From Streptomyces ferrugineus (GTDB lineage Bacteria > Actinomycetota > Actinomycetes > Streptomycetales > Streptomycetaceae), in assembly GCF_015160855.1 (NCBI RefSeq), contig NZ_CP063373.1, positions 1,860,001 through 1,924,000 of the forward strand: a stretch of 64,000 nt of DNA. Direction: 5' to 3'. Numbering within the stretch: position 1 is the first letter of the stretch; each line of letters opens with the position of its first letter. The notes beneath the pieces are model-generated. The model saw nothing but the letters and a program-made list of their open reading frames with translations, did no database searches and was not told where the DNA came from. The translations under genes were made by a program, and so were the position numbers. Positions 24,612-59,183 of this stretch are shown here, in pieces.

Positions 24612-25502
24612 ATGCTGACATTGGTGACGGGTACGACGGGACAGGTCGGCCGGCGCTTCGTGCCGAGGCTGCTGGCGCAGGCCCGGTCGGACATGGGGGT
24701 CCCCCCGCTCGAGCGAAGCCGAGAGCGGGGGAGGGTGCGGGTGCTGGTACGGGACCCGGCGCGGGGCGAGCCGTTCGCGGAACTGGGCGCCGAGGTCGTG
24801 GTCGGCGATCTGCGGGACGCCGACGTGCTCGGCAAGGCGGTCTCCGGGGTGGACGCGGTCGTGAACGTGGCGGCGTCCTTCCGAGGAGTGCCCGACGAGG
24901 AGGCGTGGGCGGTCAACCGGGACGCGGCCGTGGAGCTGGGCCGAGCCGCGCGGACGGCCGGTGTGCGGAGGTTCGTGCAGGTCAGCACCGGGCTGGTGTA
25001 CGGCACCGGACGCGGCCGCCCGCTGACCGAGGACGACGAGACCCGGCCCGGCGGGGCGATGTGGGGCGCCTACCCCGAGTCCAAGGCGCAGGCCGAGCGG
25101 GAGCTGCTCGCGCTGGACGGCCTGGACGTACGCGTGGGCCGGCTGCCCTTCGTCTACGGCGAGGGCGACCCGCATCTCGCCCAGTCCCTGATGTGGGCCC
25201 GCGACTGGGCGGCGACCCAGCGCCTCCACATGGGCCACCACGTGGACGTCGCCCAGGGCCTGCTGCGCATCCTGCACGCGCCGGGCATCGCGGGCCGGAT
25301 CTACAACATCGCCGACGACGCCCCCGTCACGGCGGTGGAGCTGCACCAGCTCAACGGGGTCGAGGTCCCGCAGGAGCTGTACACCCGCACCGACCCCGAC
25401 CCGTGGGTCCAGATCACCTCCACCGAGCGGATCCGCCGGGAGCTGGGATACCGGCCGGTGTACCCGTCGGTCTACACGGCCCGGGACGCCGGGGCGCTCT
25501 AG
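24612..25502 (+). CDS. NAD-dependent epimerase/dehydratase family protein carrying a palindromic insert
   Basis: This is a 296-residue extended short-chain dehydrogenase. The nucleotide-binding motif TGTTGQVG is at residues 7-14 and the catalytic YPESK (Tyr-x3-Lys) is near residues 156-160. Between the first helix and second strand the protein has an extra 14-residue stretch (about residues 28-41) coded by a palindromic element at 24692-24733. Without it the reading is LLAQARSEVRVLVRD, as expected for the fold. The substrate is unknown. The TAG stop lies inside the 6-base target duplication of the downstream IS481 element. GAGGAGC precedes the ATG. Confidence 0.86.
   Translation: MLTLVTGTTGQVGRRFVPRLLAQARSDMGVPPLERSRERGRVRVLVRDPARGEPFAELGAEVVVGDLRDADVLGKAVSGVDAVVNVAASFRGVPDEEAWAVNRDAAVELGRAARTAGVRRFVQVSTGLVYGTGRGRPLTEDDETRPGGAMWGAYPESKAQAERELLALDGLDVRVGRLPFVYGEGDPHLAQSLMWARDWAATQRLHMGHHVDVAQGLLRILHAPGIAGRIYNIADDAPVTAVELHQLNGVEVPQELYTRTDPDPWVQITSTERIRRELGYRPVYPSVYTARDAGAL
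24692..24733. mobile_element. Short palindromic mobile-like element, copy 1 (in frame)
   Basis: This 42-bp element begins CATGGGGGTCCCCCC, contains GAGCGAAGCCGAGAGC and ends GGGGGAG. It includes the perfect GGGGGTCCCCC palindrome and a second hairpin, CCCCCGCT paired with AGCGGGGG, whose tip GCGAAGC is an exceptionally stable mini-hairpin sequence. Its length is divisible by three, so the epimerase frame is kept. A second copy is at 56825-56870. Confidence 0.75.
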
Positions 25503-56648: not shown

Positions 56649-57042
56649 ATGGGTGCGTGGACGGCGACGAGCGGTGGAACGAGAGCGAGGCGGGAGCGCG
56701 CGGCCCGCACCGCCCCCGGAGGCCCCTCGGCCTCGCACTGGATCCGCTGGCCCGACTTCCGTCTCCCGGCCGACCGCGAGGCCGCCCGCGCCGCTCTTGC
56801 CGAGGCGTGGAAGCGGGCCACCGCCATGGGGGTCCCCCCGGGCTCGAGCGAAGCCGAGAGCTTGGGGGAGTGTGGAGATCGCGTGCGGCGGCGGTCGGGG
56901 GCGTACGGGGACGGCGCTGGCGTGTCTGGCGGTGCTGGACGGCGTGCCGGCCGAGGACGCCGTGGACTTCGTACGGCGGAACTACGACCGGCACGCCGTG
57001 GAGACGCCGTGGCAGCGCGGGTATGTGCGGCGGTTCAGGTGA
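56649..57042 (+). pseudogene. Protein-tyrosine-phosphatase-like gene disrupted by a palindromic element
   Basis: The 3' half encodes VEIACGGGRGRTGTALACLA, a Cys-x5-Arg phosphatase loop (CGGGRGRT), and ends PWQRGYVRRF. The 5' half encodes HWIRWPDFRLPADREAARAA and EAWKRATA in another frame. Between them lies the 46-bp palindrome at 56825-56870. Removing exactly those bases joins the halves in frame as EAWKRATAVEIACGGG. The N-terminal region before HWIRW is also shortened and appears to use a third frame, so the gene may be decayed at both places. Its end overlaps the convergent beta-lactamase gene by 8 bases. Confidence 0.8.
56825..56870. mobile_element. Short palindromic mobile-like element, copy 2 (frame-breaking)
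   Basis: This 46-bp element is nearly identical to the one at 24692-24733: CATGGGGGTCCCCCC, then GGGCTCGAGCGAAGCCGAGA, then GCTTGGGGGAG. It is 4 bases longer in the stem. Because 46 is not a multiple of three it breaks the phosphatase gene. The tip GCGAAGC and the GGGGGTCCCCC arm are shared with copy 1. Confidence 0.8.
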
Positions 57043-57895
57043 GCGTTTCCGCCAGGAACTCGGTGGCCTTCACGATCAGGGCGTGGTCGTAGTCGGCGTC
57101 CTGCTCGGGCCGTGTCGTCTGGACCGCCAGGACGAGCGGCGTGCCGTCCTCGGTCCAGGCGATGCCCACGTCGTTGTTGGCGCCGTAGGAGCCGCCGCCG
57201 GTCTTGTCGGCGATCGCCCAGGTCGGGGGCAGGGCCGCGCGGAAGCGGTTGACGCTGGTGGTGTTGTTCAGCAGCCAGTGGGTGAGGAGGTCCCGGTCGG
57301 GTCGGTTCAGGGTGTTGCCGAGGACCAGACGGGCGTAGGTGCGGCCGATCGCGCGCGGGCTCGTGGTGTCCGTGACGCGCCACGGCTCCGCCGAGTTGAG
57401 CTCGGTCTCCCAGCGGTCGAGGCGGGTCACCGGGTCGCCGAGCGAGCGGGCGAAGCGGGTGATGGCGGTGGGGCCGCCGAGCTCGCGCAGCAGGAGGTTG
57501 CCCGCCGTGTTGTCGCTGAACCGGATAGCCACGTCGGCGAGTTCGCCGACGGTCATGCCGGTCGCCAGATTCTGCTCGGTCTTGTCGGAGTTGGCCACCA
57601 GGTCGGCCGCCGTGTAGTGGATCCGCTTGGCGAGCACCTCGCCGTCCCGGTCCAGGTCGCGCAGCACCGCCGCGGCGGCCAGCGGCTTGAACAGCGAGCA
57701 GATCGGGAAGCGCTCGTCGGCGCGATGGGCGACGGTCTGCTTCGTACGGACGTTGTACGCGAACACGCCCAGACGGGCGCCGTGCTGCCGCTCCAGTTCA
57801 CGGAGGCGGTCGGTGGTGGCGTGGGCGGGGGCGCCGGTGAGGAGCGCTGCGGCGGTGGCGGTACCTGCGGTGAGCAGGGTGCGTCGGCCTAAGAT
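57035..57895 (-). CDS. Class A beta-lactamase, start codon non-canonical or lost
   Basis: This serine beta-lactamase of about 286 residues has the family motifs: active-site Ser-x-x-Lys in CSLFK, SDN in RFSDNTAG, and KTG in DKTGGGSYG. The signal peptide GRRTLLTAGTATAAALLTG ends near AHA. A strong ribosome-binding site GAAGGAGA at 57901-57908 points, with 6-base spacing, to ATC at 57893-57895, followed by TTA (bldA codon). No in-frame ATG, GTG or TTG lies between there and about 58057. Start at ATC, a far-upstream TTG/GTG (which would overlap the divergent gene), or a mutated ATG are the options. All catalytic parts are intact. Confidence 0.82.
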   Translation of the reverse strand: MLGRRTLLTAGTATAAALLTGAPAHATTDRLRELERQHGARLGVFAYNVRTKQTVAHRADERFPICSLFKPLAAAAVLRDLDRDGEVLAKRIHYTAADLVANSDKTEQNLATGMTVGELADVAIRFSDNTAGNLLLRELGGPTAITRFARSLGDPVTRLDRWETELNSAEPWRVTDTTSPRAIGRTYARLVLGNTLNRPDRDLLTHWLLNNTTSVNRFRAALPPTWAIADKTGGGSYGANNDVGIAWTEDGTPLVLAVQTTRPEQDADYDHALIVKATEFLAETLT

Positions 57896-58049
57896 CTCGG
57901 TCTCCTTCGCTCGGATTTCGACTGGTGGATTTCGTCTGACGGGTGATGACGATCTCTGCAGTGATCGACGCCGTACGGCATTCCTTGGTTGCAGTGCCGT
58001 AGACCATCGGCCGACGGCGCGGCGCGCGGATGCTCGCCACAGTGGCCGT

Positions 58050-59183
58050 ATGGAGAACACCAAGGGGATCAGCCGGGCACGTTTTCTCGCGGGGGCGGCG
58101 GCCGTCGGACTGGCGGGGGCGGTGCTGCCCGCGGGGCAGGCGGGGGCGACCGGGGGAGGGCGAGGGCTGCGGCACCGGGGCGTCGTCTACACCGTCGGCG
58201 CGGGGGAGACGCCCGGCACCGCGTGGAGCGCGGCCCGGATGCGCCGGGACATCCGCGTCATCCGCGACGAGCTGCACGCCGACACGGTCGACGTCACCGG
58301 CGACGGCGTCGACCGCCTCACCGCCACCGCCGCCGAGGCCGCCGAACGCGGGCTGCACGTCTGGCTCCAGCCGACCCTCGGGGACGTGCCGGAGCGGGAG
58401 ATCCTGGACTCGATCGCCGAGTGCGGCCGGTTCGCGGAGCGGCTGCGCCGGCAGGGCGCGAGTGTCGACTTCAGCGTGGGCTGCGAGTTCTGGCTGTTCG
58501 TGCCGGGGATCGTCCCGGGCGAGACGGTCCTGGACCGCGTCGAGAACCTCCAGAAGGGCACCGTCGACGAGGCGAGGATGCAGCGCCGCCTGGCTCGCTT
58601 CACCGCGAAGGCGGCGGCGGTCGGCCGCGACGTCTTCCACGGCCGCCTCAGCTACGCCGCCGCCCAGGACGAGGAGTTCGAGCCGGTCGACTGGAACCTC
58701 TTCGACGTCGTGGGCATCGACTACTACTCGTACCATCGTCAACAGGCCGACTACATCCGTGAGTTGCGCCGCTATCAGCGTTGGGGCAAGCCTCTGGCCA
58801 TCACCGAGTTCGGCACCTGCGCCTACGTCGGCGCCCCCGAGACGGCCGGCATGGGCTGGAACATCGTCGACTACACGAAGGAGCCCAACGAGATCAAGGG
58901 CGACCCGGTGCGCAGCGAGCGCACCCAGGCCGCCTACCTGATCGATCTCGTGGAGGTGTTCGAGTCGATGGGCCTCTACGCGGCGATGGCCTTCGAGTTC
59001 GTCACCCCGGACGCCCCGCACCGCCCCGACAACCCCCGCTACGACCTGGACCTGGCGAGCTACGCCATCACCAAGCCGATCAAGGACCGGCCGGACGACC
59101 CGGCGTCGGACTGGCACTGGGAGCCGAAGGAGGCGTTCCACGCGCTGGCCCGGCGGTACCGCAGGTGCGCTCAGTCGCAGTAG
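58050..59183 (+). CDS. Tat-exported TIM-barrel (glycosidase-like) protein
   Basis: This 377-residue protein has a signal peptide (SRARFLAGAAAVGLAGAVLP to about QAGA; one Arg pair-like start, probably Tat). The mature part looks like a (beta/alpha)8 glycosidase: GLHVWLQPTLGD, VDFSVGCEFWLFV (Glu), NLFDVVGIDYYSYH, LAITEFGTCAYVG (Glu) and FEFVTPDAP. Two Glu at the ends of strands would be acid/base and nucleophile. The substrate is unknown. The stop overlaps the convergent S33 gene by 13 bases. The start lies 154 bases from the divergent beta-lactamase. Confidence 0.78.
   Translation: MENTKGISRARFLAGAAAVGLAGAVLPAGQAGATGGGRGLRHRGVVYTVGAGETPGTAWSAARMRRDIRVIRDELHADTVDVTGDGVDRLTATAAEAAERGLHVWLQPTLGDVPEREILDSIAECGRFAERLRRQGASVDFSVGCEFWLFVPGIVPGETVLDRVENLQKGTVDEARMQRRLARFTAKAAAVGRDVFHGRLSYAAAQDEEFEPVDWNLFDVVGIDYYSYHRQQADYIRELRRYQRWGKPLAITEFGTCAYVGAPETAGMGWNIVDYTKEPNEIKGDPVRSERTQAAYLIDLVEVFESMGLYAAMAFEFVTPDAPHRPDNPRYDLDLASYAITKPIKDRPDDPASDWHWEPKEAFHALARRYRRCAQSQ

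Follow-up and report, generated by a model that had tools for sequence, protein, structure and literature searches.

What interrupts a phosphatase gene near the end of the stretch of Streptomyces ferrugineus DNA analysed here (64,000 nucleotides, hereafter the window), and how might so short a piece of DNA have come to lie there? The gene is read on the plus strand in three parts: an N-terminal remnant at 56657..56695 (VDGDERWNESEAG), which comparison with S. curacoi places out of frame with the next part; a middle part at 56721..56825, recognised by translation and comparison and ending in ..EAWKRATA; and a C-terminal part at 56872..57042, translated from VEIACGGGRGRTG.. to the stop codon in a frame other than that of the middle part. 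The element itself lies at 56826..56870 on the plus strand, in the 45-nt form AT-GGGGGTCCCCCCGGGCTC-GAGCG-AAGCCGAGAGCTTGGGGG-AG. A sequence-only reading had recognised a tiny, gene-less palindromic element inserted in a phosphatase gene, with which element-free sites in relatives agree; its extent of 46 bp (56825-56870) is corrected to 45 nt by alignment with other copies. Our overall explanation, which we think probable, is that the element is a non-autonomous mobile hairpin that is swapped for five nucleotides of its target, exists in forms that spare the reading frame, and is moved by an enzyme supplied in trans.

The phosphatase gene and the element in the window

The same reading proposed a precise, scarless insertion whose exact removal repairs the frame and restores the phosphatase. 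Taking out 56825-56870 does join ..EAWKRATA to VEIACGGGRGRTG.. in frame, but the homologues carry two extra residues at the join: the motif V/I/A/L-E-x-A-C is present in 79 of the 80 phosphatase homologues fetched, with xR immediately N-terminal of it in all 79 (ER in 66), and the joined window protein, KRATA-VEIAC, is without these two residues; the ancestral gene is not recovered by exact removal. In S. curacoi, one of the 79, the R of xR is encoded in its own copy of the element. Nor is the insertion scarless, as five nucleotides stand between the flanks in 91 of 102 element-free phosphatase rows, and a 5-nt swap is found at other sites. Further upstream, at approximately 56696..56720 on the plus strand, the window has 25 nt against 117 nt in S. 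curacoi, a net 92-nt deletion that is a second frameshift, separate from the element and left in place by its removal. The residues at the join and this deletion contradict a clean 46-nt insertion, to which we give practically no chance. The gene thus has two lesions or more, and its loss is not due to the element alone.

In S. curacoi DSM 40107 (L054) the corresponding position holds a 44-nt copy, within a single open frame of 209 codons. Such a copy had been named in advance as evidence against an insertion, yet relative to the other homologues it is an insertion all the same. The left arm has GG in the window copy and T in that of S. curacoi, which gives +40 and a frameshift. The 45-nt form is rare (2 of 135 copies), but a different site in another genome (L436) has it too, so that it is perhaps a sub-form and did not arise here by mutation. 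Two histories are proposed for the window gene: a copy that kept the frame, as in S. curacoi, would later have gained a base, or a 45-nt copy would have entered separately; the 92-nt deletion also breaks the gene, and the two events could have come in either order. In Pfam, the S. curacoi phosphatase frame with its element scores 26.2, just below the cut-off of 27, and the joined window pieces score 31; a structure-sequence search with the S. curacoi protein gave five weak matches, to receptor phosphatases and designed barrels. Downstream, facing the phosphatase remnant, a gene on the minus strand (57035-58063) resembles a class A beta-lactamase in a translation read by eye.

Folding predicts an imperfect hairpin at 56835..56868 (plus strand), the stem pairing 56835-56845 with 56858-56868, around the central pentamer GAGCG (56846..56850, plus strand), which is the commonest target pentamer in the empty-site comparison. 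This hairpin is only moderately stable, at best. As DNA, the 45-nt window copy is no more stable than shuffles (z -0.61), and the 71 nt around it give z 0.51 as DNA and -0.69 as RNA; the 41-nt consensus reaches z -2.42, with 4 of 200 shuffles folding as well, its complement -1.70, and the 44-nt form -0.70 and -1.12. The loop contains GCGAAGC, which we take to be an unusually stable DNA mini-hairpin. All six reading frames of the element are open, which is ordinary for its composition (the same holds for 0.29 and 0.17 of shuffles). A known RNA family is ruled out over the element: across 701 bases Rfam returned two hits, which scored well under the gathering score and lay outside the element.

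A search for the full pattern gave one match in the window and none in 100 shuffled versions; the core GAGCGAAGCCGAGAGC recurs exactly at 24711. This second copy, delimited by the core match and by empty-site comparison, is of the 41-nt form (24693..24733, plus strand) and lies in frame, with an NmrA/epimerase-like gene (24612..25502, plus strand, start codon chosen by eye) reading through it.

A family of copies in Streptomyces

Exact copies were found in 65 of 199 sampled Streptomyces genomes, with up to 37 per genome, and the pattern read backwards, used as a control, gave none in the 199. A draw of 197 genomes from the order had copies in 72, all Streptomyces, and in none of the 16 genomes of other genera. 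The 14 plasmid records that carry the element, out of 72,556, are likewise all from Streptomyces, so the family is confined to this genus in the sampled sets. A phage origin is without support, there being no match to the element in phage records and no viral contig with the pattern. The S. ferrugineus genome, a single contig of 9.96 Mb, holds four exact-pattern copies and some degenerate ones. One site, GAGTCGACGCG..TCGGCGA, is filled both in chromosomes or contigs (L196, L220) and in Streptomyces plasmids (L450, L454).

From the fetched loci we collected 135 distinct copies in 72 site families, 97 of them 41 nt long, 32 of 44 nt, and two each of 42, 43 and 45 nt. The 41-nt form is composed of an 18-nt arm, GAGCG and an 18-nt arm, and the 44-nt form of 19 nt, GAGCG and 20 nt. 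Copies start with AT in 110 cases and finish with AG in 126, and 85 have identical arms, at varied sites. The central pentamer is GAGCG in 97 of 99 copies, in a sample that was itself fetched with the GAGCG pattern. Taken together with the comparison of filled and empty sites below, this points to the window element being a copy of a very small, non-autonomous family of mobile DNA in Streptomyces.

One form dominates in each genome. With kinship ignored, 14 of 251 copies belong to the minority form of their genome, against a shuffled mean of 72 and with none of 5000 shuffles as low; the count covers 25 genomes with listed places and omits 10 copies of other arm forms and the four copies of G000. 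A single form per genome is what would be expected if copies multiply within a genome, kinship being uncorrected. Genome G127 has three inverted pairs of elements 193-194 bp apart (C2:3292317/3292510, 4486479/4486673 and 7857390/7857584), and at L430 both copies are embedded in the two arms of a bigger palindromic repeat, which is intergenic and ends in GGGTAGGGGCGGCGGGGGCGAAAA.

Exchange of bases at the target

The bases lying between both flanks in element-free loci were taken as the empty state of a site; rows with an identity in either flank below 0.60 (phosphatase, PNKP ligase, aminopeptidase) or below 0.58 (NmrA-like, acyl-CoA dehydrogenase, reductase) were weak and left unscored. At the phosphatase site, 102 of 108 loci were scored (6 unscored), with exactly 5 nt in 91, 11 nt in 7 and other lengths in 4, and the 5-nt middles are GAGCG in 46, GAACG in 33 and GACCG in 5. 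PNKP ligase (31 loci, 2 filled, 1 weak) has 5 nt in 28 of 28 scored empty rows, and aminopeptidase (30 loci, 1 filled, 5 weak) in 21 of 24, the exceptions being single empty rows with 32, 38 and 62 nt. The site of the second window copy, the NmrA-like gene (30 loci, 1 filled, 16 weak), has 5 nt in 11 of 13 scored empty rows, and GAGCG in the nearest element-free relative. For acyl-CoA dehydrogenase (31 loci, 3 filled, of which L179 and L331 are one copy, and 2 weak), the 26 scored empty rows have 5 nt in 11, 8 nt in 11 and other lengths in 4; the 8-nt rows are one codon longer than the 5-nt ones, and 8 of the 11 end in GAGCG.

Further sites, compared by short-flank matching in which several rest on one to three rows, gave the 5-nt middles GCACG, GAACC, GAGCG, CGGCG, CAGCG, TGACG and TGGTG; three more gave single rows of 10, 16 and 24 nt, perhaps not orthologous. 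Filled sites set against empty ones thus show that the element replaces a few target bases, nearly always five, with no target duplication. Five is not strict, because six are lost at the Aldo/keto reductase site and at one repeated intergenic site (TGGGCG). The reductase site (30 loci, 1 filled, 21 weak), with 6 nt in 7 of its 8 scored empty rows and 20 nt in the other, is one base off the 5-nt rule, and the frame 3' of the element is shifted.

The target is often GAGCG, which is also the central pentamer of the element. Scored as the commonest or the nearest empty state, GAGCG is found in 5 of 14 non-nested site types (phosphatase, aminopeptidase, NmrA-like, acyl-CoA dehydrogenase and L196), one of them with a single row, against a background of 0.0024 per position; the enrichment, 1e-10, was calculated for 5 of 13 site types, a count by hand giving 14. 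In aminopeptidase the empty rows have GACCG more often than GAGCG, and the nearest relative has GAGCG. Targets other than GAGCG are CGACG, GCACG, CGGCG, CAGCG, TGACG, TGGTG and GAACC. Over the 72 site families, the flanks prefer CG on the 5' side (C 0.58, G 0.65) and GGT on the 3' side (G 0.67, G 0.51, T 0.42, against a background for T of 0.13). The element also nests within itself: in L035, L200 and L213 a whole element stands in place of the central GAGCG of an outer copy, and in L036 and L203 likewise with one base changed. A recurrent host is the intergenic palindrome GTCGTGCCGCTGGGGCG-GCACG-GGTGGGCGCAGCGGCACC, whose middle GCACG the element replaces (L020, L027, L180-L182, L184, L186, L192 and others).

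Replication or repair might place copies with no dedicated enzyme, by a template switch at GAGCG microhomology between the loop of a copy and the target. The GAGCG common to target and loop in 5 of 14 site types fits such a switch, but the junctions and the full length are constant even at targets little like GAGCG (CGACG, TGGTG), and because template switching should give varied ends, we consider it quite unlikely.

A site filled in more than one genome could reflect inheritance and not a fresh hit, and several sites are filled in at least two genomes. Taken further, the family would have no present mobility, its old insertions being handed down to descendants and exchanged between species through homologous recombination; in the acyl-CoA dehydrogenase tree, the filled copies as one clade fit as well (p 0.588). 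Against this, a PNKP gene that carries the element has as its sister a 91% identical gene without it, copies are nested, the 135 copies are spread over 72 site families, and near-identical element sequences (the same arms in 85 of 135) occur in varied sites, all of which make an immobile family very unlikely. One PNKP pentamer may have been hit twice: the tree needs two changes, also on the starred branches alone, but a single clade is not rejected (AU p 0.092).

With five bases exchanged, the common forms have a net gain of 36 (41-5) or 39 (44-5), i.e., 12 or 13 codons, and for this reason spare the reading frame. Our own coding score, based on GC by codon position, left 112 of the 135 copies unclear on one or both sides; of the 23 with both flanks clearly coding, which include some same sites in two genomes, 22 are in frame, the exception being a 43-nt form. 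Some inserts fall within a domain (epimerase, PNKP ligase, MMPL), others between domains (acyl-CoA dehydrogenase, aminopeptidase); L022 gave no Pfam family match. The element accounts for odd inserts of 12-13 residues in Streptomyces proteins, e.g., MGVPPLERSREWG and LPHSRLRSSGGTP.

Orientation bears on a further possibility, movement via an RNA copy that is converted to DNA at a nicked or gapped site, a route reportedly suggested for cyanobacterial small dispersed repeats. An element that is tiny, folded, self-nesting and found in one genus only would suit this route, but the 23 clear coding copies have no strand bias in genes, with 11 along the gene and 12 against, and we judge the RNA route, too, to be unlikely.

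Proposed movement and known small repeats

The comparative part of our explanation, namely the swap, the GAGCG target, the nesting and the frame sparing seen between filled and empty sites, is almost certainly right; the reaction proposed for it is tentative. The element would move as single-stranded DNA in folded form; an enzyme provided in trans would cut the target on either side of the GAGCG-like pentamer and join the hairpin into the resulting 5-nt gap. It is conceivable, if rather doubtful, that this is a novel integration reaction, in which a single-strand hairpin with the pentamer of its target at the centre is exchanged for five target bases, and in which the two common lengths (41 and 44, each 2 modulo 3) persist because a swap of 5 nt lets both spare the frame. 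If so, this would be a selfish element tuned to go unnoticed in coding DNA. More generally, occupied and unoccupied sites of this very small mobile element lend themselves to direct comparison and follow a simple rule, about 5 nt lost for 41 or 44 gained, which is at odds with target duplication; the element offers a testable case of gene-less elements entering coding DNA without breaking genes, and a handle on the enzyme that moves such repeats.

The mobilising enzyme was not found, the candidate examined being a Y1 transposase. If a Y1 (HUH) transposase mobilised it as a single-stranded hairpin, the mechanism proposed for REPs and RAYTs, the element would be REP-like, and its architecture of a short 5' tail and an imperfect hairpin is similar. 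With regard to single-strand transposition of the IS200/IS605 type, Y1_Tnp is present in 12 of the 20 element-rich genomes and in 3 of the 20 without the element, uncorrected for genome size and kinship. But there is no Y1 match in the other 8 element-rich genomes, one of them with 26 copies, and neither the core nor the left arm occurs in any of the 30 Y1 loci (2.1-3.4 kb each), of which 24 come from genomes that bear the element, whereas a Y1 gene flanked by the repeat is a feature of REPs with RAYT. A 5-nt swap is also not known from Y1 insertion. With these points against it, and with ends that are neither GTAG nor CGTC, movement by a Y1 transposase seems to us improbable. Tagged REPs themselves are described in the available text of PMC3733652 as imperfect hairpins of 20-40 bp with GTAG or CGTC tags, sometimes in genes and predominantly extragenic. 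The element shares with them the short imperfect palindrome in many copies, although 37 per genome at most is below typical REPs, and the end tag is absent; a tagged REP was rejected for want of GTAG/CGTC ends and of a Y1 neighbour in the 30 loci.

We judge the element to be a variant of the small palindromic mobile repeats, with the 5-nt swap as its distinctive feature. Among the titles listed for the open-licence PMC literature we found no account of this Streptomyces repeat, which does not prove that none exists. Nearest in size and in self-nesting are the cyanobacterial SDR, reportedly described by Elhai et al. in 2008 as the smallest known mobile repeats (21-27 nt, self-nesting, no transposase) and said to be confined to a group of related organisms. 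The present element nests too (L035, L036, L200, L203, L213), but by that description it would be set apart by size, sequence and host, and we know of no frame-sparing 5-nt swap in SDR.

Rickettsia palindromic elements (RPE) lie in frame in protein genes of unrelated function, according to the available parts of PMC2229807, PMC10969869 and PMC3733652, and those of the RPE-1 type measure 105-146 bp, with the target duplication of RPE marked "?" in the part of PMC2229807 at hand. The likeness is a palindromic repeat in frame within protein genes, as in 22 of 23 clear copies here; the Streptomyces element has 41-45 nt against 105-146 bp, another host and another sequence, and those same parts of the three papers describe no 5-nt swap. 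Bacterial MITEs (ERIC, Correia/NEMIS, RUP) resemble it in being short, non-autonomous stem-loops that are sometimes fused in frame to genes, as described in the available part of PMC2229807. They are about 100-200 bp long and mostly have terminal inverted repeats and a target duplication, whereas the Streptomyces element begins with ATGGGGG and finishes with GGGGGAG, which do not form an inverted repeat; a MITE with target duplication was rejected, target bases being lost and not duplicated.

Nested copies at L036, L016, L205 and L449 are hosted by a related palindrome whose left arm is GGGGGCACCTCCC or close to it, and the element may therefore be one of a larger group.
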